From IMG/VR virus record IMGVR_UViG_3300017744_000080, positions 1 through 31,708 of that record: a DNA stretch of 31,708 nt; one strand, 5' to 3'. The notes under the pieces were generated by a model. It worked only from the letters and a program-made list of their open reading frames with translations. It made no database searches and was not told the origin of the DNA. The position numbers and the translations under genes are program-made. Source of the stretch: a virus. Numbering within the stretch: position 1 is the stretch's first letter; every line of letters starts with the position of its first letter. Below are positions 1 to 31,505 of the stretch, one piece after another.

Positions 1-78
1 CTTACAAGCGAAGGGGCAGAGCAGGGACGTCTAGTAGGCGGTAAAAGCAAGGCCGATATAATGGAGTGGTTATCATGA
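1..78 (+). CDS. Thioredoxin-fold protein, C-terminal end only (partial)
   Basis: Frame 1 is open from the window edge to a TGA at 76-78 and encodes the last 25 residues of a protein. The stretch EGAEQGRLVGGKSKADIMEWL aligns by eye with the C-terminal strand-helix of thioredoxins (E. coli [21 protein letters not shown]): a turn with Gly, then a hydrophobic residue-Gly before the last helix, SK at the helix start and a hydrophobic helix end. The stop overlaps the nrdB start as ATGA, so the two genes are translationally coupled. A thioredoxin or glutaredoxin that re-reduces ribonucleotide reductase would suit this position. The active-site CxxC would lie outside the window, so the call rests on a short alignment. 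It does not look like the end of nrdA, which usually carries a Cys pair. Confidence 0.5.
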   Translation, partial: LTSEGAEQGRLVGGKSKADIMEWLS

Positions 79-7400: not shown

Positions 7401-10277
7401 TTGGCTCAAAGTAGTTGTAAAAGTTCCTACTTTTTTAGCTGTTTCACTTTTTACTGCATAATAACTGCCGTGCTGACCGTCTAGCTTGTCTGCATCTAGT
7501 CCAGATCCAGCTCCATCACTAGCACTAGACCATGTTTCTCTCCAAGCTGTCCATCCATGAGTATCTCCCCAACGTACACGTATCCAAGCACCGTCGTATT
7601 GATGAGGTATATATTCCTGAAGAATATAGTCATCGTTTGTAGCACCTGTTCCGTCGTCAGAATTCCAGTTTGTTACTCTTAGGATGCCCCATCCATAAGA
7701 GCCTGTAGGAGCATTTGAGACTACATCATTTACTTCATTCCATTCATTAACGTGATAAGTACCAGTATCTAGAAAGTCATCAAAATCTTGAGAAGAGGAA
7801 TTAATACCTACACGGTATTTTGAGTCAAAAATGTTATCTGGGAATCTTGCCGAAGGAATAGTACCGCTTGAAAGATTAGATGCATTTGTAAAATAGGTAC
7901 TATCCTGATTGTCTAAAGTATCTGCATTAATGCCTGTACTTGCAGTAGTAAGTACATTATTACCGCCAACCGTAGGAGTAGAGTTAAAATTAACAACACT
8001 GCTGTTGTAGGGATAATGAAAGACTTCTGTTCTTGTTCCATTATTATTACGATAAAAAGTTATATGATCAGTTGACTCTCCAGAAACAAAGGCAGGAGTA
8101 TTGTCTCCGTTATATGATATTCCTCCGCCGTGAAGACCATCCTGAGTCAGTTCAAGGGCACCCGTACCTTGAGTCCCACCAACCGATTTACCAATCTGTA
8201 GCATTCTAGTGGTAGAATCCGTTGATGTAAGAATTATATCTGCACTACCAGTAAGCGTTCCACTAAAGCTATCAGCAGCATCACTTCTTAAAAATGAAGA
8301 AGCATGAAGTGTGTCCACAGTGTCTGCGTCTATACTTGTCATCAACGAGGTAAAATTATCGTCTGTAAGAATATTATTAGAGTTGTGCTTTAAGTTGGAG
8401 GAGCCGTTAGTAGAGAAAGCGATTCCATCAGTTGCGTCGTTCATAGAACTAAACTGAAGGACAGACCCCGTATGCCCTCCTACATTCTCTGTATGTGTTA
8501 TAAATGCTTTATCACTAAAGTCAGTTGCTAATTCTTTATCGAAGCCAGTAAATTCTATGGTGCGAGATTTGTTATCTGTGGTAGCCTCTCCGTCTAGTCT
8601 TATATTTCCGAAGACTGTTTGCTCTCCTAGGACTGCTTCAGTCACGTCTAGGACGGTGGCACTTGCTAGATACCAATTGAAAGCTCCCGAACCCCCGGAA
8701 ACTGAAATATGTCCAGCACTTGAAAACGACCCGCTATCTCCACAATGATTTACTCGTGCGTACCACTCCCACTTTCCTGTTCCTACACTGTTTGTAAGCC
8801 AATAAGTGGTCTGATTAGTTCCTGTGGCATTTTGGTTAATATTAAGAGTTCTACCCGCAGGTACTTTTGCCTGAAATATTTGTACAAAAGTGTGGTTATC
8901 CTCAGAAGGAAAAGATTGATAAAAACCCCCATAATTTGGAGAGACTGATCCCGTACCGTTATAAGAGATTCTAATAACTTTTCCTGACGAGTTCGGGGCG
9001 GCCCCTCCTGAATTTGTGGTCGCATCTTCTCTAGTGTGAGTTAGTGCAGTTCCTCCTTCGTTATTATAAACTTCTACACTATTTGATCCTCTACTGAAGT
9101 CTTCGTCAGGGAATATTTTTCTACCGCTATTGCGAATAGAAGAAACAATTGGATTCCAAGGGCCTCTTTCTGTAGAACTGCTTGGCAAATTTAGTACCAG
9201 CTTATCATCTACTTTAATTCCTCCCGCAGATAAAGTACCTCCTACATTTAAACTACCTGTGCTAGAGTTAAATGTTAGATTTGTATTTGAATGAAGTGGT
9301 TGAGATTCCGTAGGGTCTTTAGCAAAAACTACAGAACAAGTAGTATCATTAGATTCTACTGTTAAAACGCTTCCCGTAGAAGTACCTCTATAAAGCAAAA
9401 ATTGGCCCTCTCTAAACTCATAAGCGGGTTTATGGGTTGACATTCTGAAATTGTCGTCAGTATTTCCTGAGTAACCTATATGAACATAAATTTTATTGTC
9501 TACTGAAGTAGGGACTGTATTTGTAAGAAAAGAAGTAGTACTAGTACTATCAAGTACAAAGTGTCCATCGCTGTCTAAAGACCCTACTAAATATAAGGGG
9601 GCACCTGCAGTAGTCCAGTCCGAACTATTGGTACGATTCATCCAATATTCGCCAGTACTGTCTTCTCTAGATTCGTAGAGCTCGTTTGTTATCGCAGCAT
9701 CTTCGGCAACATCAGTGCTAGCTCCATAAAATAATATTTGACCGCCGAGTCTCATAGGCTGTGTGGATACAGTATTGTTTGTAGCGTTTGCTACACCACC
9801 TTCTGTTACAGGATAAAATTTGCCATCACTGCCTTCCATAAGCACTTGCTCGCCATGAATTTGAGCACCCGCAATTACATGAGAGTTCCAGCGAAGATTA
9901 TAATAATCCTGGGTATCTATATCAGTAGCAGCATACCAACCGTCTTTTGTAGAATCAAAAGTGTAAAGAATTGTTGTTCCAGTAGGAATATGTGTAGTAA
10001 GTTTATCATTATTTTTTCTATAAACTGTTTTTGCGCCCAGACTGTTTATATTTAGAGTAGTAGTACCGCTTCCGCCAACCGTATTATGTCTAAATGCAAC
10101 TAAAAGTCCATCGTAATAGGAAGAAATATTTGTATTTGTACCTGTCCAAATGCCTGCAGTTCCTTCGCTATTTCCATCGACAAAATGAACGGAACCCTCA
10201 CCTTTAATTACATTACCGGTGATTGTACCTGCAGCGTCTATGCCATTCTTTACTTTGAAATTTTTATCGTTTGCCAC
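4425..10277 (-). CDS. Giant tail fibre protein
   Basis: A 1950-residue, Gly/Ser/Thr/Asn-rich protein typical of long trimeric fibres. The start is GTG at 10277, with GGGGAG about 9 nt upstream. Recognisable parts: β-rich N-terminal region; fibre segments of the type TVDTLHASSFLRSDAADSFSG (near residue 650) and LDNQDSTYFTNASNLSSGTIP (near 790); a pyocin-knob-like domain at about 829-916 (FLDTGTYHV ... GWGILRV ... QEYIPHQYDGAWIRVRWGD ... WTAWRETW); three copies of an ATGDQI(H/Y) module (about 1119-1139 and 1459-1625) shared with the J protein; and a terminal region with ANTISANMVSANII and VLNANSVLA repeats echoing the helical repeats of J. No peptidase S74 chaperone domain was seen. It has its own consensus promoter and probably forms side or central fibres for host binding. 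Confidence 0.88.
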   Translation of the reverse strand: MANDKNFKVKNGIDAAGTITGNVIKGEGSVHFVDGNSEGTAGIWTGTNTNISSYYDGLLVAFRHNTVGGSGTTTLNINSLGAKTVYRKNNDKLTTHIPTGTTILYTFDSTKDGWYAATDIDTQDYYNLRWNSHVIAGAQIHGEQVLMEGSDGKFYPVTEGGVANATNNTVSTQPMRLGGQILFYGASTDVAEDAAITNELYESREDSTGEYWMNRTNSSDWTTAGAPLYLVGSLDSDGHFVLDSTSTTSFLTNTVPTSVDNKIYVHIGYSGNTDDNFRMSTHKPAYEFREGQFLLYRGTSTGSVLTVESNDTTCSVVFAKDPTESQPLHSNTNLTFNSSTGSLNVGGTLSAGGIKVDDKLVLNLPSSSTERGPWNPIVSSIRNSGRKIFPDEDFSRGSNSVEVYNNEGGTALTHTREDATTNSGGAAPNSSGKVIRISYNGTGSVSPNYGGFYQSFPSEDNHTFVQIFQAKVPAGRTLNINQNATGTNQTTYWLTNSVGTGKWEWYARVNHCGDSGSFSSAGHISVSGGSGAFNWYLASATVLDVTEAVLGEQTVFGNIRLDGEATTDNKSRTIEFTGFDKELATDFSDKAFITHTENVGGHTGSVLQFSSMNDATDGIAFSTNGSSNLKHNSNNILTDDNFTSLMTSIDADTVDTLHASSFLRSDAADSFSGTLTGSADIILTSTDSTTRMLQIGKSVGGTQGTGALELTQDGLHGGGISYNGDNTPAFVSGESTDHITFYRNNNGTRTEVFHYPYNSSVVNFNSTPTVGGNNVLTTASTGINADTLDNQDSTYFTNASNLSSGTIPSARFPDNIFDSKYRVGINSSSQDFDDFLDTGTYHVNEWNEVNDVVSNAPTGSYGWGILRVTNWNSDDGTGATNDDYILQEYIPHQYDGAWIRVRWGDTHGWTAWRETWSSASDGAGSGLDADKLDGQHGSYYAVKSETAKKVGTFTTTLSQNTYSRVARVLGNELSSAVRVVFALHGGNLVSNIVADILVNHSQDIQIISNSSDYDALTIKVEVNGNNEDFDLYVKYAYHANHPTTCDLKTTIYPLGDETVTANPTDTAYTGGESYEHTTLVGGVRHTQNSGTVDIKTDGNFYSVDNIVFHAGDTAAVTNGATTIATGDQIYDFVTGRNYITNIVTGASPQLQIRNATNGGGARIKFSDQSSDSYGQNGAMTFYHFDAESYGSAAAFILESSESTTTILADGKLMYAEGIYSKPPGSDPADASNGYTIANYRKDQNWDAAYNDNITGMSFSTANGELVLTQRDGGTITQDLDGRYQLQGTQYEWSVTDVSNNDDRWYKVATVNQGNSGITIRGTINNHVESYGTQKIDLSFFGRAGNSDDINIAGTFTVANTPTASRGVGIRVINIPDNSYDHKDVYIRLTRYSQANLTIFREGNANKVDINLDTSSNNYVTTEPSAGSANVNLVFDNTTQTTGHYSVMDNVITEITTNDGDITGVTAGNGLSGGGNSGGVTLAVDVDDATIQISNAKVAAKTGAVVDGGTALATGDQIHDFVTGLNYTTNTGDITSVTAGNGLSGGGTSGDATINVVGGSGITANANDIAVDVDDATIQISNTKVAAKTATVADNVTALATGDQIHAYAYSRSEINTILDRGYTSENFHSASNLAAGWYTIAVASTARAMGRFAIWDQDSGKHQTCIFYASHTYGTNASNNITVLDYSYYAGTPLRYIRIKEGGTHDGCALQIYCDTSGASELRVALLGDNVQDQRWVVKDFIADATDPGVSTHSNSTGGSGSSNWSSFVERAKIDLDQMGQGGMATTGDMYAGAGTTQNKVVTEAANTISANMVSANIIHACHIYGSNATFDNLVAAYAEIDVIVANQIDTDVLNANSVLARAVRVQSSGQTEITIDANGEPSGGKGVFLKEDGDFFTGDPSGAHLLFDQSAGKLKIRSGTTGGRIEFVNDTIKVLDSGGNERVILGNIS
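5774..5836. repeat. 63-bp direct repeat, copy in the giant fibre gene
   Basis: By eye this stretch is identical over 63 bp to 12100-12162 in the J gene. A third copy in the same fibre gene (5513-5573 region) differs at a single base within the shared part. Both main copies encode VDDATIQISNAKVAAKT in the same frame. Confidence 0.85.
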
Positions 10278-10384: not shown

Positions 10385-13300
10385 CTATACTGTAACGCAG
10401 TGCCTTACTATTTTCACCGTTGCTGCGGTTGCGGAGGACATAGTGACTTTAAGCCTTACCGCTGTTCCATTAATATCCGTATTGATTGTACCCAAAACTC
10501 CATTTGTTTCTAGTTTTGCAAACTCTGTAGCAATTGCATTTGTACCATCATGTATTACAAGTACTTCAGATGCTTGATAATTAGTACCTTGAGTAATTTG
10601 TACGGTATACTTTGCAGTTCGGAAATCTGCCTTCGCAAAGCTATCTATAACAGTTTCATTAGTACTCTCTACGGCTGTAGTTAAAGTATCAATACCTAAC
10701 GCCTCTACTTGTAGCTTTGCTTTAGGGTTTTTGGTAGAGATGCCAACATTTCCGCTATCCGCTCTTACAACAAAACTAGTTTCGCTAACAACTGTTCCAC
10801 TGTGTTTAGTATCAATATGGAATCCGTGTACACCCCCAGTATCATCAAAATACCCTAGACGTATTCCATAGTTACCTTCCATACCCCAACCTATTTTCCC
10901 ACTAGCTCTAGTTAAAGATAGAAGTTCCGCAGGTGTAACTACACCTATACCTACTTTGCCTGAGGAGTCTATGCGTAGTCGTTCTGAGCCACCTGCGTTG
11001 AACCTAAAGTCATTACGAGTTTCAATAGAAGCTGTTCCCGTTGTATCCTTAAACTCAACTAAACAAGCTGTGTCTGTAGATTCGAATCTAGCAACTTCGT
11101 TAGTTGTGCCCGAACTTACATGCAAAGCTCTAGCAGGACTAGAAGTACCTATACCTACCTTACCTGTATCTCCGTTCACAGTCACACGTCGAGTGTCGTT
11201 TGCATAAACTACCACATCTCTACTACTTCCGTAACCTCGTATATTAAAATCATCATTAATAGTATCAATCCGGGCTACGTTTGCATTAACATTATCCAAA
11301 AACTGAATTCTATGATCGTCGTCGTCTGACGTATCTCTTATAGTTAAGTAAGGACTGTCTCTATCTATTCTAAGATTTCTATTGAACAACCACCCTGTGG
11401 AAGCATGCTCATAAGTAAGAGAAGCACTTGCACCATCAATAGTAATACCTGCCCCATCTGCAGCTGCAGAATCTGCGGCACCTTTAGCAACAGTAATATT
11501 TAAATCATCTACATCAAGAGTAGTAGAGTTAATGGTAGTAGTTGTACCATCAATTTGTAAATTACCTTTAATAATTAAAGTACCATTATTATTTCCATGG
11601 TTTCCGTCCCCATCCGCAGGGTCAATAGTAAAATTATCAGGTCCTTTTAAAATACCTGTCATGGTTAAATTAGTTAAAGTTCCTACCGAAAGATTATTAT
11701 ATGTTCCTGAAAGTTCTCCGCCAAAAGTAGTAGATGTATTTAAATAGTAAGCAGGTAGCTGATCTCCTAAAGTATCTGCATTACCTCCGTCTGCCTCTGC
11801 AGTAAAGCTGCTGCCATCAAAAACTGTAAGAGGTATATTTGCAGGATCAATAGTATTTTGTGAACCATTATCTAAAACTACAAAACGATCTGTTTCAGCT
11901 ACAAGTGTTGTAGTATCGGTTAGCTCTGATAAATCTACGGAAATTGAAGGGCTAGCGGCCGTTGTGGTATCAACATCGATCAAAGTACCTGCAGTCACAC
12001 CTGTAAGTGTTCCTACGTTACTAGTATAACCTATATTCGTAACAAAAGTATGTATCTGATCACCTGTAGCGAGTGCTGTTCCTCCGTCTGCTACAGCATC
12101 TGTTTTAGCAGCAACTTTTGCATTAGAAATCTGTATAGTAGCATCATCTACATCTACTGCTAAGTTACCTGAAGATGTTACTGTACCTGTAAGACCGTCT
12201 CCTCCGCCTACACTTGTTACTGTACCCGTATTAGTAGTATAGTTTAAACCGGATATATAACTATAAATAGTTCCTGTTGTTGCAAGATCCGTTCCATTTT
12301 CAGCAACGTTTCCTGTTTTGGCAGCTATATTATCACTAACATTAACTTCTATAGTGGTGCCATCTACATTTACAGCTAAGTCTCCTGTGGATGTTACTGT
12401 ACCTGAAAGACCCGCTCCTCCGCCTACACTTGTCACAGTACCTACGTTACTAGTATAACCTATATTCGTAACAAAGTCATGTATCTGATCCCCTGTAGCG
12501 AGTGCTGTTCCGTTCTCCACTACCGAGTCTGTTTTAGCTGCTACTTTTGCACTTGCATTAATTTCAATAGTAGTATTATCGGGATCTACTGCTAAATTAC
12601 CTGAAGAGGTTACTGTACCTGAAAGACCGTCTCCCCCACCTACACTTGTTACAGTACCTGCGTAGTTTGTTGAAACAAAGTCATGTATCTGATCACCTGT
12701 AGCGAGTGCTGTTCCTCCGTCTACTATGTCAGCTGTTTTTGCTTTAACACTTCCTGCACCGTCTGTAGCAGATAGTTCTATTGTGGTATCATCTACAGTT
12801 ACTTCTATCTCGTCTGAGTTTGCTGTAATACCGCCTCCACCGACAACATTTAAAGTTACTGCTCCAGAGTCTCCTCCGTCAGTTAGACCGTTCCCTGCGA
12901 TTACTTGAGTAATATCTCCGACGTTATCAGTATAACCTCTACTCGTAACAAAAGTATATATTTGATGAGCTGTAGCAAGTTCTGTTCCATTTTCTTGAAT
13001 AGCTGCAATCTTAGCGGCTACTTTTGCACTTGCATTGATCTTTAATGTTACATCATCGACTACTACTGCTACTGAGTCGTCTGCTACAGTTATACCATTT
13101 CCTGCTCCCACAGCTAGACTTCCTGAGCTTGTAACGGTACCGGTAAGACCGCTTCCTCCAGATACACTTGTTACAGTACCATCAGTTGTGCTAAAACCTA
13201 GCTGGCCTATATAAGCGTGAACTGTTCCACCTGTTACAAGAGTAGCAGCACCTGTTGCAACGTTTCCTGTCTTGGCAGCTATATTATCGCTAGCATTAAC

Positions 13301-16300
13301 TTCTATGGTAGTGTCATCTACATTTACTGCAACATCGTTAGTATTAACTGTTATACCTGTACCAGCTCCTACAGCCAAATCTCCTGTTGTTGTTACTGTA
13401 CCTGTAAGACCGTCTCCTCCGCCTACACTTGTTACAGTGCCGTCTGTATCTGAAAAGTTTTGGTTAGCTATATAGGTATAAACACCCCCTGCAGTTGCAA
13501 GACCCGTAGCATTTTCTGCAACAGCTGCTGTTTTAGCTGCGACTTTTGCACTTGCATTAATTTTAACTGTAACATCGTCTACATTTACTGCGACATCATT
13601 AGTATTAACGGTAATACCATCCCCTGCTCCTACTGCAAGATTTCCGGCAGATGTTACAGGGTCTCCTGTAAGACCGTTTCCAGCCGCCACACTTGTTACA
13701 GTACCTGTGTTAGTAGTGTACCCTTTGCCAAGAACAAAATCATTTATCTGATCTCCAGTGGCTAGTGCAGTGCCTCCATCTGCTACTGTATCCGTTTTTG
13801 CTTGTATAACCCCTGTGCCGTCAGTCGCCGATAGTTCTATAGTAGTATCGTCTACTGCTGCTTTAAATTGTGTACCATTTTCTCCGGGCAGGGATATGCC
13901 ATCTCCTGCAGTGTATTCTGTATTTGAAGATGAAAGTGTGAGAGTAGTTGCATCAGTTCTAGTAACTGTTACATTCGTGCCTCCAGAAATAGTAATATTA
14001 TCGGTGCTTGAATCACTACCTGCAAGAGAGATATTTGTAGTCGACTCCGGCACTGTTAAGTCATAGGTTGTATCCGAAGTTGCAATAGTAACAGTATCAG
14101 TAGTATCATCTGCTTTAGTCAATGTTAAAGTGCCGCCATCTATACTAAGAGCTGTCGGACTTTTTAGTGCTTGGTCCGAGGATGTAGTAACTCTATTACC
14201 TAAAGCCGTATTTACAGTGCTTGAGAAACTTGCATCATCTCCAAGAGCTGCCGCTAGCTCATTTAAAGTATCCAAAGCTTCAGGAGCTGAATCCACTAAA
14301 CCTGATACTTGATTATCAACATAAGTTTTAGTAGCAATAGTATCTGTATCTACCGATATTGCTGCTGAAGTATTATCAGTTCCTGCAACATTTAATCCCG
14401 TAGTAAAATCTAGAGTTGTAGCGGCAGTTGCCTGAGTTGTAGCATCTTCTTGAACAATTACACCTGCAATAGCATCAATATTTGAAGTTGCATCAATCTG
14501 TACACCCGATAGTTTTAGTTGGTCTCCATCCCATAAAATACTTGCATCTGCATCACCAAATACGAATCTTCCATTATTTAAGTCTATAAACGCTCCTGAT
14601 TCGTTACCGGTAGGAACATCGGTTGCATCAGGAATGTAGTTTGCACCAGAAGTTCTTAAAGTACCTGCCGTAATGTCACCCAAATCTGCTGTAATTGCCG
14701 CTATGTTAGCAGTTTTGATTTCTGCTGCTTTAACCGAGTTAGCATTTAATAAGTTTGCAACAACAGTATCCGCAGTTACGTGATTAGCATCAATAGCTCC
14801 TGTAGCTATTTCTTCAGCTGATATAGTATTCGCTTTAATATCAGCAGATTTAATTGAGTTTGCGGTTATTAAGTCAGATACAACACTTCCTGAATTTATA
14901 TGGTCAGCTGTAATGACATTTGCTTTCAATATCTCTGTAGTAATAGAGTTTGCAGCTATAGAATTTGCATTAATAGAATTTGCCGCTATTTTGTTCGCTG
15001 TAATAGAGTTAGATTTTATATCATTCGCTTTAATAGAGTTTGCACTTATTAGATCCGCAAGAACTGTTGTTGCTGAAAAATGCTTGGCAGTAATAACTTC
15101 TGCTTCCAACTTCTCTGCTGTAACACTATCTGCTGAAAGTGTGTTTGTTTCTATGGCATTAGCACTCAAAGCCGCCGTAGTTATAGAATTTGCTTCTAAC
15201 TTGTCTGTTGTAATTGCATTTGCTTGTATTTTATTAGCACTAATCGCATTTGCTTGTAATTGGCCTGTTGCGACACTTTCGGCAAAAAGAAGTTGTCCAT
15301 CTAAAACTTCAGATTGACTATTCCAGTCTGTTCCATCAAAAAGAAATACAGTTTGACCGTTAGGGGCAGCCTCAGAGCCTGTAAAAAAGTATGCTTGATC
15401 ATTAGTAACAGGGTCTCCAGGTCTGCCATCCCAGTTTGTATCCCATGCAGTATCTGCCTGTGCTGATGTAACAGGTAGACTATTTACAGGAATATGCCAG
15501 CGACCTGGACCTCGATCCCCGTCTTGTCTTCGAGAATGTATAAAAGGTGTTGACCATCCTGACTCTTGAGGAGCAGATCCATCGCTTGTAAATATACGAC
15601 TAATTGCATAAACAATATCTTTATCATTGTTCATTTCAGGAATACTAATAGTCCAACCACTATTACCGTCGGCTGGGTTAGCAAAACTACCTGCCGCCTG
15701 TACATATGTAGGCGCATTTCCATTATTTGCTACTTTTTGATATAATAATGAAGTTTTACCTTGTTGAGGAGTAACGGAACTATCAATATTTATCAAAGAT
15801 ACAAGTTGGTAAGACTCGGTATTATGTTTATACACTCTCGCTATTATTGACTCTGTAGCAATATCTATTCTGTAGTTGGTAGTTTGAGCTTTGCTATTGG
15901 TAAAAGCCGCCCCCATATCTCTATCTACTTCCATTCTAGTATCACTTTCAATAAAGGATATTTTTGCAGCTTGACTTCCGACAACTAATAAGTCGCCTAC
16001 CTGAAAGTCAGAGGTAAATGAAGTACTCGTACCAGTAATTATAGTACTAGTCGCTAGTTTAGAAACAGTTCCTTGAATCCCTTCTTGTTCAAGTGAAGAG
16101 GTTAAACCTCCTGTAGTAGATCCGGTACCCGCATCATACCAATACGGTATATTATATGAGTTACTCCTACTAAACCTAAGAAGTTTAAAAATATTACTAG
16201 TCTGTGTGGTACGTATTAATACATAGTAGTGGTCATCTAAAAAAGTATTAGCATCATTATTATGCTCTGTTGTTGTAGACATACCAGAACAATCGATTTT

Positions 16301-19300
16301 ATATGTATCAGTACTTACACTGTTATTTGATAAAAATGGAGCCGTTGATTGAGGCGCTCTGAATCCGTATACGTTGTGTCTAAATTGGTAAGTACCATTA
16401 GTATCGATAAAAGCGCTAGTACTTGAGGCGCCTCCTGCAGGTATCCCTAAAGGAAATCTAGTTAAAATATCTGGTAAGTTGTTTCTAACTTCTACCCCTA
16501 TTTGCACAGGTTCTGATAAATTACCTAAAGTGTTTCTAGTTCTTAACTCTACAAAGTAAGTACCTTCTGGTACTTTTTCAAATACTAGCTCTGTTGGACC
16601 TTTTTCTATGCCCATAGGACTAGGATAGTTAGGGAAGTCGTGAATTAATTCGTAACCTGCTAGATGCTTATAGTAAGCACTTAGTTCTACGTCTCCTATA
16701 ACTCCATCATCATCTTGAGAATCGTCGGCATCATATACAAGACCAGATATAGCTTCTGCCAAAGGATGTTCCCAGTCTATAACCACATCGCTGCCTTGTA
16801 GTGTACTAGACGATGTTACTTGTTGAGGCCTATAATGTACTGCTCTGGGTTTTGGTATGTCGTCTGTTGATACAATGTCTTTATTAATAGGCTCCACTAC
16901 ATAGGTTGAGAGAGTTCCTTCAATAGAGTCAAACTTAGAATCATAATGCTCTACTGCTACTAAATCAAACTTTGTCCCGTCCGCTGATTGGGCTAGTGAT
17001 AGTATTTTATACTCTTTAAGAGATCCTTCTACAGTCAAGCCATTAGTAGTTTCTTTAAGAGCCCAAATGCTTCCGCTCTCAGGAGCCTCAGTAAAGTCTG
17101 AAGAAATTTCTAGAACATTATGTGTACCTGATGACGTACTTACTTCTCGTGTTTCAGTACGGATGTCTTCTTTCCATCCTAGAGACAGACTGGAAGTGGC
17201 TGAAGAAGTACCCTTAGCATTTGATGCTTTATCTTCAGTATCTAACTCTTGAAAAGTATATACACCGTTACCGTCAGGATCTACATACGCTTTATTTATA
17301 ATATCGCCTTTGGAATAAGATACTCCATTAACAATCATATCCTCTAAAGCATATGCTGTAGGTTTTATTAAAACTGTGCTAATTTCAAATTCACTACCTG
17401 CATCAAGTGTAACAGAGGAGTCTAAAGCTACTCGTGATTTAGAAGAGTAATGAGCAAGTTGATTACTATAAGTTCTTAAGCCCGAGTCAAAATCTCCGCT
17501 CCAAGCAGTTCCTCTAGCCCAAGGCGAAGTATCTCCTGCTATATTACTATAACCTCGACCCCATCCGCCAGGATTACTTCCGCTCCAAATACTATTTTCA
17601 AGTCCAGATCCATTACTTGTAGCTTCATCCATTATAAGTCTACCATCTATCCAGAGTCTTAGAGTTCCTTCTGTAGGATGTATCTCCCATGCTACAGTAT
17701 GAACCAAGTCGTCGAATTCCGGAATATCTGAAATTTTTATATTTTTAACAATGGTATTATTTGTGGTTGATTGAACATTGGCATTTCCGTCGCCTGTTCT
17801 AGCTCCAAAATACTTTTCATCATTGATAGTTAATACACCTATCCAAGTACCTGTAGAGTCTCCTCCATGTTCGAACAAACACTCGGAGGAATTAGAAAAA
17901 GCACTCGGAAGTACTACTTCACCTGCCATTACAACGGACTGCCCTCGTACTGTAGCACTGAAGGCGTCCGTGCCTATCTCTGTATTTGCAGTATAAGTAT
18001 TTCCAATAGTTAAATGTTTTTCGACCTGGGTAGATACAAAACCGCCATATCTAACAGAAGTTCTATCACCATCTTGTATATTTACTATATCTCCAGGGGT
18101 TACGAACGCCCCGTTTATACCTGTGGAAAAACTTACGAGCTCTTGTTGGTTTGCGGCTGTCCATAGCTTCCACTTACCATATCTACTCGCTTGTGCTTCG
18201 GACGTACAGCCCATAGCCGTAACTTCTTGTGTAATAGTAGTTCCTGTCTCTGAAATATTTTGACGATCTTCTACTAAAAGAGGTTCTATCTTATAGTCAT
18301 TTCTAGGATTATTCCAATATACTATAGCTTGGTTAGGTCTAGTCTTACTTCCTGTGCCTTCGTATTCAAATTTTCCATCAATAACATTAGCTTTTGTAAA
18401 GTTTGCTACAGGATAAGAAGGGGCATCGGGGATAGGAGTTATTTTACCTTCCATAAAGTACAGCATACCAATAAAGTTAGTAGCGAGGTCTTTTAGTACT
18501 TTATAGGAATCTACAGCTTTCGTCAAGTATACATTTAAAGTATATCTTGGCTCTAATCCGCCTTTTCCATCTGAAACTAATTCATCACAGTATCTTCCCA
18601 GCCTATATAAAGCATATTTATCAACATCTAAAGAGCTAATAAAATCTCCTAAACCATACCTATTGTTAGTAAGAATATCATAAAAAATCCAAGCAGGATT
18701 ATTAGTATAAACTTTTTCTGATCTAAAAGATCCATCCCAATCTTGATAAGTACTTGTTATAAGTCCTGTGTCTGTATCTCTTTTATATGAAGATATTCCG
18801 TCAGAAGCTTCGTCTCGAGTAACATAATTAGAGGGTACAGATATTAATAATCCCTTTGCATGGTAACTTCTTTTAGGCATCTTCTGGTGTCTTTTTGTGT
18901 TAAAGGACACCTTACCCATTGCAGTTAATGGGTAATTAAGTATATCTTTTGTAATTAGAGTTACGGTAGCCATTTGAGCAGCGGTAACATTTGTCCAGTC
19001 CTTGCTTCTTTTACCTGCTTTACTATATCCATCATCATCATCAGAATCGATTCTAGCAACTACTATTTTGAAATCCTCAAAAGGTCGTAACTTATCTATA
19101 TCTACTTCGTGTTCAAAGGTTCTTGCATTTTTATACTTACCTTTGTGAGTAACTGTTTTCGTTCCAAAGAATGTAGACCAGACTCCATTTTCTTTTACCT
19201 GTGCAGAAATTTTATATCTAATATAAGTGGTTTTATCGTCGCCATCACCGTTTCGGGCATAGAATCCACTACCGTAGTTAATTCTAAAAATAAGAGTATC

Positions 19301-20392
19301 TACTTCCATAAGCTGGGAAGACGACAATCCTAGGTTACCACTACCTTGTAAAGTTTTTGGGGCTTGAGTGCCACTGCCGTAACCAGTGCTTTGCTCAAAT
19401 TGTTGCCCTATATTTACAGTTACACCACTTGAACCGTGTCCTCCAGAACCGCTCAAAGGTGGCTGAGTTAAGTGACCTGTAAGAAACTGTACCTGAGTAC
19501 TCGGTATTTTTGCACCTATCGACTGATTTTTATGATTAAGATCTTTTGCGGCAATTAAACCTAAATTTTCAATTTTGTGTGTTCCGCTAGGGTGGGGCCA
19601 GTTATCTTTCAAAGTAACAGAAGTACCAGAAATACTTGCTATACCCACTGCGGAATCCATTTCTAATTTGTAGTCTCCATTTGGTACTACTGTTGATGCT
19701 GCATAATATTCTCCCCCATTCAGGACAAAAGAGCCGTAGTCATTTGGACCTGCAGAAGGTGAAACTATATTGAAGCCTTGACCGGAAGCAGGTCTATCTG
19801 TGATAAACCCCTCCACAACTCCATTTCCTAACAAAGTAGGAGAAGTTCCTGCTATTTCTTTTAATCTTATAGGTCTATATTTGGTGTCGTCATCAGATGT
19901 GCCTGCATTTAATAGGCTAAGAAGGTTTCCTGACCGTGCTCCTGGGCCTGTAACGGTATCTGCAGTAAAAAAGTCCTCTGCCTCTAAACGAGATGAATAT
20001 GTTCTATTAAGAATGTTACCAGTGGATATATTGGTTTTTGTAACATTGCTTGTATAAACATTTTTTGCAAGTACAAACTGGGACACTCCAATAGGTTGTC
20101 CATTTGCAGCGGATGTAATTACTGTTTGAGAAGTAGTACTTAAAGTTGCATTCTTACTTCCGTTTGTAAAAGTAAGAGTTACCTGAGAGTTTACTTGCCT
20201 AGTTCCTGCAGCTTCTACACTAGATATTCTGTCATTATCCAAAAATACACTAGCTTCGTTATTTACTAGTCCATAAATTGGGCCTTCTGAAATCACATCA
20301 GTTACGGAAAGCGTTGAAGACTCTCCGTTTCTCATTCTTTCGGTTAACTGACCTCTTTCTCTTCCGTCTATTCTTGTTCCACGATTAGCCAT
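10385..20392 (-). CDS. J: Host-specificity / tail tip protein, J family, giant form
   Basis: A 3335-residue protein, about three times lambda J (1132). In lambda, J forms the tail tip and binds the receptor. The start MANRG...LSVTDVISEGPIYGLV matches the J family start, and residues about 505-775 carry the core (NPAWIFYDILTNNRYGLGD, YCDELV, GLEPRYTLN, MGCTSEAQASRYGKW). Additions follow: a LamG/concanavalin-like domain at about 801-985 (LVHTVAWEIHPTEGTLRLWIDGRLI region); a fibronectin-III-like domain at about 1176-1300; about 40 (A/T)(N/D)xIx repeats at 1701-1900; a TKTYVDNQV...LDTLNELAAALG fibre segment near 2018-2068; eight repeats of 65-90 residues at about 2197-2797; a GTTTTINSTTL domain near 2950; and a β-structured end. 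It starts at a TAATG junction with I, with GGAGGA upstream. The C-terminal two thirds behave as a fibre fused to J. Confidence 0.95.
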   Translation of the reverse strand: MANRGTRIDGRERGQLTERMRNGESSTLSVTDVISEGPIYGLVNNEASVFLDNDRISSVEAAGTRQVNSQVTLTFTNGSKNATLSTTSQTVITSAANGQPIGVSQFVLAKNVYTSNVTKTNISTGNILNRTYSSRLEAEDFFTADTVTGPGARSGNLLSLLNAGTSDDDTKYRPIRLKEIAGTSPTLLGNGVVEGFITDRPASGQGFNIVSPSAGPNDYGSFVLNGGEYYAASTVVPNGDYKLEMDSAVGIASISGTSVTLKDNWPHPSGTHKIENLGLIAAKDLNHKNQSIGAKIPSTQVQFLTGHLTQPPLSGSGGHGSSGVTVNIGQQFEQSTGYGSGTQAPKTLQGSGNLGLSSSQLMEVDTLIFRINYGSGFYARNGDGDDKTTYIRYKISAQVKENGVWSTFFGTKTVTHKGKYKNARTFEHEVDIDKLRPFEDFKIVVARIDSDDDDGYSKAGKRSKDWTNVTAAQMATVTLITKDILNYPLTAMGKVSFNTKRHQKMPKRSYHAKGLLISVPSNYVTRDEASDGISSYKRDTDTGLITSTYQDWDGSFRSEKVYTNNPAWIFYDILTNNRYGLGDFISSLDVDKYALYRLGRYCDELVSDGKGGLEPRYTLNVYLTKAVDSYKVLKDLATNFIGMLYFMEGKITPIPDAPSYPVANFTKANVIDGKFEYEGTGSKTRPNQAIVYWNNPRNDYKIEPLLVEDRQNISETGTTITQEVTAMGCTSEAQASRYGKWKLWTAANQQELVSFSTGINGAFVTPGDIVNIQDGDRTSVRYGGFVSTQVEKHLTIGNTYTANTEIGTDAFSATVRGQSVVMAGEVVLPSAFSNSSECLFEHGGDSTGTWIGVLTINDEKYFGARTGDGNANVQSTTNNTIVKNIKISDIPEFDDLVHTVAWEIHPTEGTLRLWIDGRLIMDEATSNGSGLENSIWSGSNPGGWGRGYSNIAGDTSPWARGTAWSGDFDSGLRTYSNQLAHYSSKSRVALDSSVTLDAGSEFEISTVLIKPTAYALEDMIVNGVSYSKGDIINKAYVDPDGNGVYTFQELDTEDKASNAKGTSSATSSLSLGWKEDIRTETREVSTSSGTHNVLEISSDFTEAPESGSIWALKETTNGLTVEGSLKEYKILSLAQSADGTKFDLVAVEHYDSKFDSIEGTLSTYVVEPINKDIVSTDDIPKPRAVHYRPQQVTSSSTLQGSDVVIDWEHPLAEAISGLVYDADDSQDDDGVIGDVELSAYYKHLAGYELIHDFPNYPSPMGIEKGPTELVFEKVPEGTYFVELRTRNTLGNLSEPVQIGVEVRNNLPDILTRFPLGIPAGGASSTSAFIDTNGTYQFRHNVYGFRAPQSTAPFLSNNSVSTDTYKIDCSGMSTTTEHNNDANTFLDDHYYVLIRTTQTSNIFKLLRFSRSNSYNIPYWYDAGTGSTTGGLTSSLEQEGIQGTVSKLATSTIITGTSTSFTSDFQVGDLLVVGSQAAKISFIESDTRMEVDRDMGAAFTNSKAQTTNYRIDIATESIIARVYKHNTESYQLVSLINIDSSVTPQQGKTSLLYQKVANNGNAPTYVQAAGSFANPADGNSGWTISIPEMNNDKDIVYAISRIFTSDGSAPQESGWSTPFIHSRRQDGDRGPGRWHIPVNSLPVTSAQADTAWDTNWDGRPGDPVTNDQAYFFTGSEAAPNGQTVFLFDGTDWNSQSEVLDGQLLFAESVATGQLQANAISANKIQANAITTDKLEANSITTAALSANAIETNTLSADSVTAEKLEAEVITAKHFSATTVLADLISANSIKANDIKSNSITANKIAANSINANSIAANSITTEILKANVITADHINSGSVVSDLITANSIKSADIKANTISAEEIATGAIDANHVTADTVVANLLNANSVKAAEIKTANIAAITADLGDITAGTLRTSGANYIPDATDVPTGNESGAFIDLNNGRFVFGDADASILWDGDQLKLSGVQIDATSNIDAIAGVIVQEDATTQATAATTLDFTTGLNVAGTDNTSAAISVDTDTIATKTYVDNQVSGLVDSAPEALDTLNELAAALGDDASFSSTVNTALGNRVTTSSDQALKSPTALSIDGGTLTLTKADDTTDTVTIATSDTTYDLTVPESTTNISLAGSDSSTDNITISGGTNVTVTRTDATTLTLSSSNTEYTAGDGISLPGENGTQFKAAVDDTTIELSATDGTGVIQAKTDTVADGGTALATGDQINDFVLGKGYTTNTGTVTSVAAGNGLTGDPVTSAGNLAVGAGDGITVNTNDVAVNVDDVTVKINASAKVAAKTAAVAENATGLATAGGVYTYIANQNFSDTDGTVTSVGGGDGLTGTVTTTGDLAVGAGTGITVNTNDVAVNVDDTTIEVNASDNIAAKTGNVATGAATLVTGGTVHAYIGQLGFSTTDGTVTSVSGGSGLTGTVTSSGSLAVGAGNGITVADDSVAVVVDDVTLKINASAKVAAKIAAIQENGTELATAHQIYTFVTSRGYTDNVGDITQVIAGNGLTDGGDSGAVTLNVVGGGGITANSDEIEVTVDDTTIELSATDGAGSVKAKTADIVDGGTALATGDQIHDFVSTNYAGTVTSVGGGDGLSGTVTSSGNLAVDPDNTTIEINASAKVAAKTDSVVENGTALATGDQIHDFVTNIGYTSNVGTVTSVGGGAGLSGTVTSTGDLAVNVDGTTIEVNVSDNIAAKTGNVAENGTDLATTGTIYSYISGLNYTTNTGTVTSVGGGDGLTGTVTSSGNLAVDVDDATIQISNAKVAAKTDAVADGGTALATGDQIHTFVTNIGYTSNVGTLTGVTAGTLIDVDTTTAASPSISVDLSELTDTTTLVAETDRFVVLDNGSQNTIDPANIPLTVFDGSSFTAEADGGNADTLGDQLPAYYLNTSTTFGGELSGTYNNLSVGTLTNLTMTGILKGPDNFTIDPADGDGNHGNNNGTLIIKGNLQIDGTTTTINSTTLDVDDLNITVAKGAADSAAADGAGITIDGASASLTYEHASTGWLFNRNLRIDRDSPYLTIRDTSDDDDHRIQFLDNVNANVARIDTINDDFNIRGYGSSRDVVVYANDTRRVTVNGDTGKVGIGTSSPARALHVSSGTTNEVARFESTDTACLVEFKDTTGTASIETRNDFRFNAGGSERLRIDSSGKVGIGVVTPAELLSLTRASGKIGWGMEGNYGIRLGYFDDTGGVHGFHIDTKHSGTVVSETSFVVRADSGNVGISTKNPKAKLQVEALGIDTLTTAVESTNETVIDSFAKADFRTAKYTVQITQGTNYQASEVLVIHDGTNAIATEFAKLETNGVLGTINTDINGTAVRLKVTMSSATAATVKIVRHCVTV
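12000..13800 (-). repeat. Eight tandem fibre repeats within J
   Basis: The protein here repeats a unit of the form (D/E)GGTALATGDQIHDFV..NIGYTSN-(V/T)GTVTSVGGGDGL(T/S)GTVTSSGNLAV...VDDxTIxxNASAKVAAKT. Unit length varies from about 65 to 90 residues because some copies carry an extra GxGITVNTNDVAV segment. The DNA copies remain similar, for example TGATC(A/T)CC(T/A)GTAGC(G/T)AGTGC near 12058, 12485, 12690 and 13748. Related copies lie in the neighbouring fibre gene. Such repeats usually form β-structured shaft segments. Confidence 0.88.
12100..12162. repeat. 63-bp direct repeat, copy in J
   Basis: Identical by eye to 5774-5836 in the giant fibre gene, in the same orientation. The 6326-bp offset preserves the protein frame between the two genes, so exchange between the copies would yield an in-frame J-fibre chimera. 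Confidence 0.85.
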
Positions 20393-21159
20393 TATGCAAA
20401 AGTTCCTCCGCCAATACCACCACTAAAGCTTACCTGAGCAAAGGCAGTTCCGGTATATCCTGTTAAATCAACTGTAGGGGTTATTGTTTCGTCCAAAGGT
20501 TTTATAAAACCTTGTGATGTTGTTATATGAGAAGGATTTCTAAAATCCCCTTCTATCATATCTACTGCTACTACTTTTCCGGGTACTCTTAACTCTCCAT
20601 ACAATATAGGTATAGGGTCACCCTCTGTTACGTTTCCAGAGTCAGAGCCCCCATAAAGATAGTTAGAAGGATTATCATTATCTACAGAAGGGTCTGGCAT
20701 CATCATTTCCATAATGCCCATTATAGCAAGATTAGTAGCTACCATTGCAAGTCCGAAACCTAAATTGGTACTCATTGCTGCACCAATTAACTGACCTGTA
20801 GTCATACCAGCCGCCGCCGCCGAGCCCGCTGCTGCTGCACCAATAGCTGGCAAAGCAACAAATACAATTACCAAAGCTACTACTATTTTTATAGCTTTTT
20901 TAGATCCTGCAGGAACTAAAGAAATAGTTACATCTCCCTCTTCCAAAGAAGTAAGTAGTTCTTCTTGAGGTATCTCCTTTCCTTGATGTACTATATTCAT
21001 ACATATATCTTCCTGCTGGCATTTGTGTAGAAAAGGTTTAAAGTCGGGTCTATTTGCATTTATGCACTTAAAAATATCTTGATAAGTATCACTGTTCACA
21101 GTAAAACTTGAACCAAAACGTTCTCCTAATTCTCCTTGTAGATAAACTTTACGGCGCAT
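20392..21159 (-). CDS. I: Tail tip assembly protein, lambda I family
   Basis: A 255-residue protein (lambda I is 223). The N-terminal ~85 residues look like the ubiquitin/MoaD-like β-grasp domain of the family (RKVYLQGELGERFGSSFTV ... GDVTISLVPAGSKK). A long hydrophobic Ala/Gly/Met-rich region follows at 89-154, and then the family hallmark GDPIPILYGELRVPGKVVAV at about 180-199. The start overlaps the end of the K gene by 11 nt (ATGCGCCGTAA), and the stop overlaps the J start as TAATG, so K, I and J are translated as a coupled set. In lambda, I is needed for tail-tip assembly but is not found in the finished virion. The last 40 residues are Gly/Thr-rich and end GGIGGGTFA. Confidence 0.9.
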   Translation of the reverse strand: MRRKVYLQGELGERFGSSFTVNSDTYQDIFKCINANRPDFKPFLHKCQQEDICMNIVHQGKEIPQEELLTSLEEGDVTISLVPAGSKKAIKIVVALVIVFVALPAIGAAAAGSAAAAGMTTGQLIGAAMSTNLGFGLAMVATNLAIMGIMEMMMPDPSVDNDNPSNYLYGGSDSGNVTEGDPIPILYGELRVPGKVVAVDMIEGDFRNPSHITTSQGFIKPLDETITPTVDLTGYTGTAFAQVSFSGGIGGGTFA

Positions 21160-21847
21160 ATCTATAAACTCCTGTTAAATATTTTTTCCAAAATGGATAT
21201 AAATTTTCTCGACATGATAGTCTGTTTTCTGCATGGTGAAAGAATAAATCATCTCCTAAGTAAACACCACAATGGTTTGCTATATTTGATTGTACTGTAA
21301 ATATTAGCACATCATTTTTTTGTATATTTCCTTCGACTCTGACATAATTATAATTTTTTATCATTTCATCAGTAAAATAGTCTAAGTCCTTATCCCACCA
21401 ATTATCTTCAAACGCTTTTCTAGCTGGGATATGTATATCTTGGCTCGATAAATAATCTCTCATCGCTTCAAAACAATCATTTGTGCCAAATTCGTAAGTC
21501 CTTCCATATAATGCTTTTGCCTTTCTTTCAGGTTCTTGTATATGAAGTTCCATATTAGGGTAGCTAAAAATATAGTAAGGTAATCCTATAGCGTTACAAT
21601 ATTTGATATCCGCAGGGCTAGGAGTACAACTAGCGTCTGGATGGCTATGAACTATGGCTACAATATCAGCTCTATGGGATATATTTATATATTCTGTAGA
21701 GTCTATAATAAAGTCGTCCTTATCTTCTGCTACATTGGTACAAGGATACCACTTTGACTCTCCTTTTACTACTGCAAAAACTCCACAACCTTCTCGTGGG
21801 TAGCACTCTTCAAAATGCTTTCGTATATCTTCTAAGTGTTCTTGCAT
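21149..21847 (-). CDS. K: Tail tip assembly protein, lambda K family (JAMM + NlpC/P60)
   Basis: Two enzymatic domains in one 232-residue chain. The first is a JAB1/MPN-type metalloprotease-like domain with a complete JAMM motif: Glu19, then His67-x-His69-x7-Ser77-x2-Asp80. The second is an NlpC/P60 cysteine-peptidase-like domain with Cys125 (GTNDCFEA), His192 (NHCGVYLG) and a polar His204/His205. K of lambda has the same architecture; the NlpC/P60 part may cut cell-wall peptides during DNA entry. All catalytic residues are present, so activity is plausible. The ATG at 21847 is chosen over an in-frame ATG at 21898 that would overlap the L gene by 50 nt. The chosen start sits one base after the L stop (TAATATG), indicating coupled translation. 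Confidence 0.92.
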   Translation of the reverse strand: MQEHLEDIRKHFEECYPREGCGVFAVVKGESKWYPCTNVAEDKDDFIIDSTEYINISHRADIVAIVHSHPDASCTPSPADIKYCNAIGLPYYIFSYPNMELHIQEPERKAKALYGRTYEFGTNDCFEAMRDYLSSQDIHIPARKAFEDNWWDKDLDYFTDEMIKNYNYVRVEGNIQKNDVLIFTVQSNIANHCGVYLGDDLFFHHAENRLSCRENLYPFWKKYLTGVYRYAP

Positions 21848-21848
21848 A

Positions 21849-22994
21849 TTAAAACTTCGCTGTGCCAGGGAATCCGGCAAAAGGTAATACTGATGCATTC
21901 AATTTATTACTGGAAGGCAATGTGTTATAACTATGATTGGCGGTTTGTCCTTGAAATCTACACTTACATGAATTTATTAACTTTCCGCAGGCCTCTTCTC
22001 TGACCCAGTATGCACTATTTTGTGATGGTGTATTATTTTGGTTAGAGTCTACTAAAGATTTAAAAATCGTTGTAACTGTTACACCATTAATAGAAATAGA
22101 TGCTTTTACTAAAGAGTCTTTACTATATGAGGACGAAGCAGAGTAGTTTTCAAATGTATAAACTCTTTGCCAATATAATTCTCCCGAAACGTCTCCAGGA
22201 CGAATAGTAGAATTTGATGTATGCTTCTGTTTTGCTACATAGTACTTATTATTTCTTTTTACATAACTATTTTGAGTATATGCTGTACCATCGTTATAAT
22301 TACTACTATGCGAAGTAACATGATAGGTTAAAGCCATAGGTTCATCAAATACATTAAAGTAAAAAAACTTATTAGAACTACTATCACTAGAGTCATAGTC
22401 CTCTAGCTCTGATACAGGACTCCAAGTACAACCTCCTTTACCATGAGTAGAGTGTCCTTGATACTGCCAACTACAATACTTCCCTACTTGTATTCTTCTA
22501 GGTAGCTGTATGCCTTCTAAGTCATAAGCTACTGCTAGCTCGAAACTGACTAACATATTGTTTTCGGCGGAAACTCTATCTATCTTATATCTTACGCGGG
22601 ACATAGTAACAGGGGGGTTACTACTACTACCCAGACCATTATCTAAATATTTATCAAAAGTTATACGAGATACTAATGTAGAACCTACTAAATCATTAAA
22701 ATTTCTAATACCTAGACTATTTTTTAGAATACTGCCCACGTTAGCAATACTTAAAGTAGGACGATTTATTGAGCCATCTGCAGAAATTTCCATGCCGTCC
22801 AATTCCATAGGCATAGCTACATAGGTCTGTACATCTCCACTACTATCTGCTCTGAACTTAATTTCTCCGAATCCTTGATTAACTCCGGGATGAAAATACT
22901 TCTCCCCTCCTGAGGCTAGTTGAAGATCGAAAAGCTCTACCTTGCCCTCATTAATCTCAGACTGTTGAGCATCTGTTGCTATTATATTTGTCAT
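21849..22994 (-). CDS. L: Tail tip protein L with inserted binding-module repeats
   Basis: A 381-residue L-family protein (lambda L is 232). The N-terminal half follows the family pattern (LFDLQLASGGEKYFHPG near 21-37; LPRRIQVGKYCSW near 165-176), and the end LPFAGFPGTAKF is a family hallmark. Lambda L binds an iron-sulfur cluster through four Cys. Here Cys174 and Cys189 form one group and Cys336, Cys343 and Cys345 the other. Between them lie about 145 residues holding two repeats that resemble chitin-binding CBM5/12 modules: YNDGTAYTQNSYVKRNNKYYVA...PGD...YWQRV (233-278), and SASSSYSKDSLVK...TTIFKSL...TPSQNSAYWVRE (285-333). The insert accounts for the extra length and could place a glycan-binding surface at the tail tip. 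ATGA overlap with M upstream. Confidence 0.9.
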   Translation of the reverse strand: MTNIIATDAQQSEINEGKVELFDLQLASGGEKYFHPGVNQGFGEIKFRADSSGDVQTYVAMPMELDGMEISADGSINRPTLSIANVGSILKNSLGIRNFNDLVGSTLVSRITFDKYLDNGLGSSSNPPVTMSRVRYKIDRVSAENNMLVSFELAVAYDLEGIQLPRRIQVGKYCSWQYQGHSTHGKGGCTWSPVSELEDYDSSDSSSNKFFYFNVFDEPMALTYHVTSHSSNYNDGTAYTQNSYVKRNNKYYVAKQKHTSNSTIRPGDVSGELYWQRVYTFENYSASSSYSKDSLVKASISINGVTVTTIFKSLVDSNQNNTPSQNSAYWVREEACGKLINSCKCRFQGQTANHSYNTLPSSNKLNASVLPFAGFPGTAKF

Positions 22995-23365
22995 GCTTCA
23001 TAAACTCTTTTTACATTTACGGTTAAAGAATAAAAGTTATCGTACTGATAATTTACACTATAAGTTGTTAAAACAACTTTTACGGTTTTTTCAGATCCTG
23101 AAGTATTAGTATCAGGAATTTTTAAATTAAATTTAGTTACTGCTTTTGTAGCGTCCAGAAACAATATTACATCATCTACAAACTCTTTCGTTCTAGTTTT
23201 AAACTGAAGTGTGTAGGTTTCTTGTATAGAGTTTAAGCCTGGTGCTATTCTCTGTTCATAACCATCTCCAAAACTAGAAGTTAATACTTTGGGTCTTACT
23301 TCTCTATTCAAAGATTTATCTGGTGTTGCGTAAAGTGCATCTTTATATATAAAACCTAACGCCAT
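22991..23365 (-). CDS. M: Minor tail protein, lambda M family
   Basis: A 124-residue protein of the lambda M (phage minor tail) family, which is about this length. The family pattern is visible: YATPDKSLNREVRPKVLTSSFGDGYEQR, then GLNSIQETYTLQF, and a final strand set ending in VNVKRVYEA. In lambda, M joins the tail tip together with L. The start is within TAATG at the end of the tape measure gene with GGGAG about 7 nt upstream, and the stop overlaps the L start as ATGA. The order H-M-L-K-I-J is the same as in lambda. No anomalies seen. Confidence 0.92.
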   Translation of the reverse strand: MALGFIYKDALYATPDKSLNREVRPKVLTSSFGDGYEQRIAPGLNSIQETYTLQFKTRTKEFVDDVILFLDATKAVTKFNLKIPDTNTSGSEKTVKVVLTTYSVNYQYDNFYSLTVNVKRVYEA

Positions 23366-29784: not shown

Positions 29785-30237
29785 CTAGTATCGAACCTCC
29801 ATCAGTATTTCACCGACTCCTAAAGGCTCTAGTACACCTTCATCAGTATCTATACTGATGACTGTGATTTGTTGAGTATATTGGTTCGTGCCTGTACGAT
29901 CCTTATACGTTAATTTTGAATTATCCTCTAATACTGTTTCTACATCCTCTAAGAGTTCGTCTAAAGCAGTTACAGAATCTTCGTCTTGCACATAGCATCT
30001 TGCTGTTACAGTAAGAAATCTATGTTTTTGCCCTCCTCCCTGGTATTCTCGTGTTTCAGAGCCCGCATTTAAATGTATTGCGGGAAACTCTTCAACTTCA
30101 TCCCAGAATTTTAGCCTTGGAGATACATTCTCATTTAGATCAGAAAGAAAAGCTCCACTACCATTTATATCTTTTAACTTTTCTGCGAGTGCGGAAACAA
30201 TTCCAGAACGTCTTGTAGTATATTGTCTCGTACTCAT
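29785..30237 (-). CDS. U: Tail terminator protein, lambda U-like
   Basis: A 150-residue protein with a helix at the start (SGIVSALAEKLKDING) and a β-α-β arrangement after it (WDEVEEFPAIHLNAG, KHRFLTVTARCYVQ, ALDELLEDVETVL, ending in GVGEILMEVRY). This matches the tail terminator / minor tail U group that caps the tube and joins it to the head. The conserved pattern is a P-A-φ-x-φ strand followed by a long φ-x-φ-x strand and a D-x-φ-x-x-φ-L helix. The ATG at 30237 overlaps the upstream stop as TGATG and is preceded by AGGAGAG; an in-frame GTG three bases earlier (30240) is less likely. Position between the Z-like and V-like genes agrees with lambda. Confidence 0.83.
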   Translation of the reverse strand: MSTRQYTTRRSGIVSALAEKLKDINGSGAFLSDLNENVSPRLKFWDEVEEFPAIHLNAGSETREYQGGGQKHRFLTVTARCYVQDEDSVTALDELLEDVETVLEDNSKLTYKDRTGTNQYTQQITVISIDTDEGVLEPLGVGEILMEVRY

Positions 30238-31505
30238 CACTCTCTCCTAGTATAAAATCTGCCCAAAGCAAACTCTGCAGCAACTTCTCTAATTGATCTG
30301 TCTATTAAAGTTCTTGGGTCTCTTTCGGGGGTAGCCCAATTACCTGAACTTCCCATTTCAAACACCTCATAAGGATTTCTTTGATAAGTATATCCTATAC
30401 TAGGAAACCCTTGAGGAGTTTGCATAATATTTGTTACTTTTACGCTCTCTGCAAACTGTCCTGTTCTATTTTGAAGCCCAGGCTCTCTCATATTTCTTCT
30501 AACTGTATCAGGAAGTTTTTTATTTAAAACACCTATTAACTGTAAAGGACTGCTTGCAACTCCTTTACTATTTCTTCTTCTTTTATTAGGGGTTCGTAAC
30601 TTTTTACTTCTACTTTTACTCTTAGTTTTTTTAGAAACTTTTTTTGCAGTAGCCTTAGTTTTTTTCTTAGTACGCTTTCTTTGCGGGTCTAATACTTGTA
30701 ATACATCTTCTGTTATATCTTCTACTAAGTTAGGGGAACCTTTTAGCCCTGAAATATCTGTATTACCTATAAGGCGTGCAAAGTGTTCTGTCTCATTCCT
30801 AACAACACCTGCAAAAGCTTGTCCTGCTAAAGCAGATAACTTTCCTTTAAATTGATTAAGCTCATCCCATTCTGCCTCAATTACTAGCTTACCTTCTACC
30901 CCTTTGAGAATGTCTACATCTTTCTGCCAGGTAGAAGTTAAATCTGCCCCATTTGCAGCAATATCTCCTAGTTTCTGTATTAGTTGGTCTTTATTTTCTC
31001 CAACCGTTCCCATAATTTTATCTATTTTATCTATCTGAGTAAGCAACTGAAGAAGAGCTAAAGCAGGTTTTCTTCTAGAATCTTTTTTATCTATTTCATT
31101 TAGAAAAAGAGATATCATACCTCGAAGAACACTTACGTTTTGATGCCCAAACTCGTAACCTTCTTTAAGCTCTGGAAAAAGTTTCTTATTTACAGATTTA
31201 ATCTGTCTAAAATTTAAGTTACCTTTTGCCGCTTTTTCTCCAGTACTTGTTTGAAACTGCATACCATCAAAAGAAAACTTTTTTCTCGAAGAGGCTCTTT
31301 CCTCTTCTGGTATGCTTTGAGCATGCTCTTCGTATGCCTTTAAAAACTCATTATATCTTTCTTTGTATTGTTCATCTAAATCAAAATACTGCTTAATTTC
31401 AGGTGTTCTATCTATTAACTTTCTTAAAGTAGTTGCTCTATAGCTTCTGCCCTCTGCCATATTATCTACAAGTTCTTTTATAGATTTTGGTTTTGTAATA
31501 GACAT
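30237..31505 (-). CDS. Z: Minor tail protein, lambda Z / HK97 gp10-like, extended
   Basis: A 422-residue protein (lambda Z is 192). The C-terminal ~105 residues carry the Z/gp10-like pattern: LPDTVRRNMREPGLQNRTGQFAESV, then GFPSIGYTYQRNPYEVFE and RDPRTLIDRSIREVAAEF. Before that is a very basic linker at about 276-315 with some twenty Lys and Arg (RKRTKKKTKATAKK ... RTPNKRRRNSK). The first 270 residues are helical, charged and of no recognised family. Z-type proteins act at the head-tail joint; in lambda, Z helps place the DNA end in the tail. The start overlaps the connector stop as TAATG. The extra N-terminal part is unusual. Confidence 0.8.
   Translation of the reverse strand: MSITKPKSIKELVDNMAEGRSYRATTLRKLIDRTPEIKQYFDLDEQYKERYNEFLKAYEEHAQSIPEEERASSRKKFSFDGMQFQTSTGEKAAKGNLNFRQIKSVNKKLFPELKEGYEFGHQNVSVLRGMISLFLNEIDKKDSRRKPALALLQLLTQIDKIDKIMGTVGENKDQLIQKLGDIAANGADLTSTWQKDVDILKGVEGKLVIEAEWDELNQFKGKLSALAGQAFAGVVRNETEHFARLIGNTDISGLKGSPNLVEDITEDVLQVLDPQRKRTKKKTKATAKKVSKKTKSKSRSKKLRTPNKRRRNSKGVASSPLQLIGVLNKKLPDTVRRNMREPGLQNRTGQFAESVKVTNIMQTPQGFPSIGYTYQRNPYEVFEMGSSGNWATPERDPRTLIDRSIREVAAEFALGRFYTRRE

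Follow-up and report, generated by a model that had tools for sequence, protein, structure and literature searches.

Two CBM5/12-like repeats between the predicted iron-sulfur ligands of a lambda gpL-type tail-tip protein

The L gene and its neighbours

The window, i.e. the whole stretch of DNA that was analysed, comprises 31,708 bases of a virus record. PHROG and Pfam matches of the neighbouring genes showed the order H-M-L-K-I-J around L, as in phage lambda. The L gene itself (21849..22994, minus strand) encodes a protein of 381 aa and adjoins M (22991-23365) as well as K (21149-21898, JAB and NlpC/P60). Upstream lies the tape measure gene, and I and J follow downstream. Window L matched Phage_tail_L (Pfam PF05100) with 80.2 bits against a cut-off of 25 and PHROG 18 with an E-value of 2e-36, and among solved structures it hit lambda gpL, the baseplate hub of F2-pyocin and two further hub proteins of phages. 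The predicted model could be aligned to lambda gpL (8iyk_L) over 147 residues in the hub fold (Z 14.2, rmsd 3.4), placing the hub (HDI-like) domain at residues 16-165 (22500..22949, minus strand). Window L is a tail-tip hub protein of the lambda gpL type.

Several other genes of the window were annotated. The very long J-like protein (10385-20392, 3335 aa) matched Phage-tail_3, while a 1950-aa protein (4425-10277) was without Pfam match. Downstream of the J/fibre genes, a product of 459 aa (2174-3553) matched Mtd_N (major tropism determinant) weakly, with an E-value of 5e-4 that is below the cut-off. A T5-like tail terminator (29785-30240; PF23818, E 2e-31) had its best phage matches in the Vibrio pVp-1 group and is followed by a weakly T5 p143-like protein (30237-31505); these T5-like genes beside a lambda-like tip operon possibly reflect a T5/lambda tail mosaic. 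The small chain of ribonucleotide reductase (NrdB; 66-1037, plus strand) was closest, at about 55%, to pelagiphage proteins.

Two repeats between the cysteine groups

The five cysteines of window L are found at residues 174, 189, 336, 343 and 345. Located between Cys174/189 and Cys336/343/345 are two homologous repeats of about 50 aa each, in an interval (21985-22310, residues 229-337) where an earlier note on this DNA had proposed two CBM5/12-like repeats. Repeat 1 covers residues 231-280 (22155..22304, minus strand); repeat 2, the last one, covers residues 283-334 (21993..22148, minus strand) and adjoins Cys336.

Relatives were collected in two IMG/VR scans of 80 loci each, which overlapped partially, and 78 non-redundant proteins, the window's included, were aligned. 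A repeat profile built from the relatives only, with the window left out, located both repeats in window L (i-E 4e-12 for 231-280 and 1e-11 for 283-334, 58 bits together). The real insert scored 64 bits, against 14.4 bits for the best of 20,000 shuffled inserts. Profiles of first and second repeats could also be aligned with each other (hhalign 97.5%, E 8e-12). The two repeats in window L are real, and the proposal of the earlier note was supported by sequence profiles, by the search of solved structures and by the predicted fold. The repeat was present in no other ORF of the window or of the fetched loci, J and fibres included.

Assignment to a known family depended partly on the relatives. 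Pfam CBM_5_12 (PF02839) matched window L at residues 232-270 with an E-value of 0.002 and 18.6 bits, below the cut-off of 26.2 bits, and the insert alone reached 21.4 bits, still under that value, but the equivalent inserts of three relatives exceeded it with 34-44 bits (L016 44.4, L010 39.2, L014 34.2). Whereas all 78 family members matched Phage_tail_L, 23 of them matched CBM_5_12 at E<=0.01. Similarly, window repeat 1 alone aligned to the chitin-binding domain (ChBD) of ChiA1 with an E-value of only 0.12 and relatives were needed for a match; a profile of the double insert gave 3e-6 for the same domain and 1e-10 for the tandem CBM pair of the Vibrio chitin-oligosaccharide deacetylase DA1, with both repeats covered.

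AlphaFold2 models of L were made from 28 and from 78 sequences. The insert was predicted with a confidence around 90, the blocks covering residues 211-330 having a pLDDT of about 88-97, and it had a CBM-like structure: repeat 1 superimposed on ChiA1 (1ed7) with 44/45 residues at an rmsd of 1.5-1.7 (Z 6.0-6.6, TM by target length 0.79). For repeat 2 the CBM5 modules of chitinase C and MmChi60 were matched (Z 6.5-6.6). The structural matches of the insert further comprised a Chromobacterium GH18 chitinase and the COD/DA1 tandem, the latter with Z 7-9 and a high rmsd owing to a different orientation of the two modules. The core aromatics of the repeat, at alignment positions 3, 9, 24 and 45, are aromatic in 95-100% of cases. 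Sequence, profile and structure comparisons thus agree that the repeats belong to the CBM5/12 (ChiA1 chitin-binding) fold family, with the tandem CBM pair of the Vibrio deacetylase as nearest relative.

The predicted iron-sulfur domain

Four of the five cysteines are invariant in the 78 sequences, in the pattern C-C...C-x6-C. Predicted ligand 1 is Cys174 (codon 22473..22475, minus strand), aligned to the CTW motif of lambda with its Cys173, and predicted ligand 2 is Cys189 (22428..22430, minus strand; lambda Cys182). Beyond the insert, Cys336 (21987..21989, minus strand), aligned to lambda KCSKCLSGCKFR and its Cys205, and Cys343 (21966..21968, minus strand), aligned to lambda Cys212, would be ligands 3 and 4. 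Cys345 (21960..21962, minus strand) is an unlikely ligand, since its column holds C, A, S or R in the relatives; of the trio Cys336/343/345, named by the earlier note as a cluster group, the first two members are therefore retained and the third is not. The insert between ligands 2 and 3 consists of residues 190-335, and the distance from Cys189 to Cys336 is 147 residues; the earlier note had given about 145.

In the models part of this domain was less well defined than the insert. Residues 160-191 had low confidence, with a pLDDT of about 42-59 at residues 161-190. Region 165-191 was below 50 in the first model (28 sequences), and with the deeper alignment (78 sequences) Cys336-345 was better modelled while 160-177 still remained below 50. 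The cluster of window L is predicted from its homologues. The function of the gpL iron-sulfur cluster has been stated as open (PMC10721106).

Copy number and divergence among relatives

Profile counts gave one repeat in 23 sequences, two in 51 and three in 3, leaving a single protein (L155) with none at threshold. Some of the single counts (e.g. L144, L152, L159) probably overlook a first repeat that has degenerated. The repeats run up to Cys3 in every case, the one exception being an extra copy after Cys4 in L147 (1282-2394). Nearly all relatives have the last repeat, with a conserved Arg-x-Asp directly before Cys3, and Trp330 and Lys338 are invariant in the 78 sequences. Mean pairwise identity was 27-31% for the insert, compared to 44% for the hub and 56-65% for the Fe-S segments. 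The faster divergence of the insert fits an exposed, host-facing binding part. The repeat is a widespread module, variable in copy number, at one site of the Fe-S hub.

Other variations in length were observed in the family. In L108 (2725-4161) a module of roughly 50 aa (G..YTI.S.G.T.FTSIGA.N...GT.F.ATG.G.G.G.A) lies within CBM-like repeat 1, and the same module was found in the hub domain, at about window residue 53, in L007, L008, L009/L010, L013, L014 and L018, which indicates that L tolerates several mobile modules. L073 to L079 have a C-terminal extension of about 100 aa with a weak DUF7243 match, and the L proteins of L156 and L162 measure 908 aa.

Phage isolates were also searched. The repeat was absent from the L proteins of all ten isolates compared, no relative was found by a profile search of genome contigs with the L alignment, and tblastn of the insert alone against phage isolates returned no match. 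Most isolate proteins have a short, lambda-like loop between Cys2 and Cys3, while the cyanophages S-2L (L085) and S-CBS4 (L168) have unrelated inserts of 182 and 261 residues at this site. The phages of the family are uncultured and probably marine, the latter being a likely reading of the pelagiphage-like NrdB of the window.

Possible function of the repeats

The exposed Trp through which ChiA1 contacts chitin (W687) corresponds to position 36 of the repeat alignment. The window has Ile at this position in repeat 1 and Asn in repeat 2, and an aromatic residue was found there in 0/77 last repeats and in about 1/51 upstream repeats. As the contact Trp is lost in the window and in nearly all relatives, chitin binding by the L repeats is unlikely, and a sugar site, if any, must be re-built. 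Such a site might involve the Tyr residues that are frequent at alignment positions 14 and 44. The repeats probably bind host surface sugars other than chitin. In lambda gpL the Fe-S domain is on the outer surface of the tip (PMC10721106), so the insert of window L should face outward; this position, and a trimeric state of the protein, are predicted from the homologues. The invariant Trp330 and the conserved Arg-x-Asp leading into Cys3 suggest that the last repeat is structurally tied to the cluster domain, the variable repeats being those upstream of it.

The reading that we mildly favour combines both properties. Two CBM5/12-fold domains in tandem split the predicted Fe-S domain of a gpL-type hub after its second ligand cysteine and before its third, and by homology to RcGTA, R4C and lambda the two halves of that domain would still meet and bind a cluster. 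The upstream repeat or repeats may bind host surface polysaccharide weakly and gain avidity together during adsorption; the last repeat, which directly adjoins Cys3 in every case, would also be structural.

A purely structural role is the alternative that survives best, although we regard it as doubtful. The repeats would then be a CBM5/12-derived scaffold without sugar ligand, occupying the periphery of the trimeric hub or docking another tip protein such as J, K or a side fibre. Loss of the sugar-contact Trp with retention of the fold core agrees with this, as do the near-constant last repeat with its Trp330 and R-x-D and the restriction of the repeat to this one protein in the fetched loci. 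A copy number of one to three and fast divergence would however be unusual for a fixed structural contact, and at the same site other phages carry unrelated inserts or none. Far less probable are true chitin-binding modules, by which the phage would attach to chitin particles or a chitin-like polymer where the host lives: the nearest solved relatives are indeed chitinases and chitin-oligosaccharide deacetylases, but a common fold by itself reveals no ligand and the known contact Trp is missing. That the insert destroyed the metal site and left the cysteines without a cluster is hardly credible despite the 147 residues between ligands 2 and 3 and the low model confidence at 160-191, given that the four ligand cysteines, and not Cys345, are invariant in 78 divergent sequences, that RcGTA and R4C hold their cluster across an insert of about 82 residues at the same site and that in JBD30 gp50 Cys147/156/238/245 act as ligands of a putative metal.

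A wider proposal is more tentative. The Fe-S hub gpL, and not only the fibres, might be a modular receptor-binding part of environmental phages, in which the loop between ligands 2 and 3 serves as an exchange site for one to three CBM5/12-derived repeats, re-tooled for non-chitin host polysaccharides, and the cluster as a clamp holding the hub closed around the inserted repeats. In this widespread family the cysteines bracket a copy-variable, adhesion-like domain, which suggests that the clamping cluster may accommodate inserts that are exchanged for one another. The family also provides a concrete set of candidates for glycan binding at the tail tip of uncultured, probably marine phages.

Comparison with known systems

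Fe-S hubs that contain an insert of putative sugar-binding function have been described before. In the RcGTA hub g13 (Rcc01696) the Fe-S domain is formed by segments 143-167 and 250-263, which flank a putative oligosaccharide-binding domain named from its resemblance to the insertion domain of LKA1 gp49 (PMC7296036); in the hub of roseophage R4C (vBDshSR4C_014) the corresponding segments are 142-161 and 244-266 (PMC10276861). Both proteins are gpL-like and, as window L, carry the extra domain between ligands 2 and 3 of the Fe-S domain. Their carbohydrate roles were deduced from structure. The RcGTA insert is a single copy resembling a T4 hub domain, whereas that of window L consists of CBM5/12-like repeats, present in one to three copies in the family, and the structural alignments of the L model to 6tba_7A and 8gtc_P (RcGTA and R4C hubs) span the hub domain only. 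The novelty suggested for the combination of metal-cluster protein and carbohydrate-binding repeats consequently does not extend to the hub with its insert, but applies to the CBM5/12 type of repeat and its variation in copy number at the Cys2-Cys3 site, for which no description was found in the open-licence literature. A search of that literature for minor tail proteins of phages with CBM5/12 likewise gave no report of the L arrangement.

Lambda gpL has the hub fold, the four Fe-S cysteines and the gene order H-M-L-K-I-J in common with window L, but only 22 residues separate its Cys182 from Cys205, without insert. The view that L proteins normally have their cysteines close together is correct for lambda and the majority of the ten isolates, and fails for RcGTA, R4C, S-2L, S-CBS4 and JBD30, whose gp50 has a wide Cys2-Cys3 gap (Cys147/156/238/245) like window L. 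A protein similar to window L has probably been deposited already: A0A6J5N8N2 of an uncultured Caudovirales phage, a 'ChiA1_BD domain containing protein' of 252 aa compared to 381 aa for window L, is likened to it by a structural match to the L model over 172 columns and by its database name.

With the Vibrio DA1/COD tandem CBM pair and ChiA1 (1ed7), the L repeats share the fold, the core aromatics and the tandem layout; these are bacterial chitin enzymes that retain the contact Trp, which the phage repeats lack. On phage tails, a CBM5/12-like fold is also found in phages 7-7-1, Milano and A-1(L), of which tail-fibre or baseplate chains structurally matched the L insert model. The carbohydrate-binding module of the A-1(L) neck fibre did not bind the host of that phage (PMC10966104). 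In these three phages the fold is carried by fibre or receptor-binding chains, whereas in window L and its relatives it lies inside the Fe-S hub protein.
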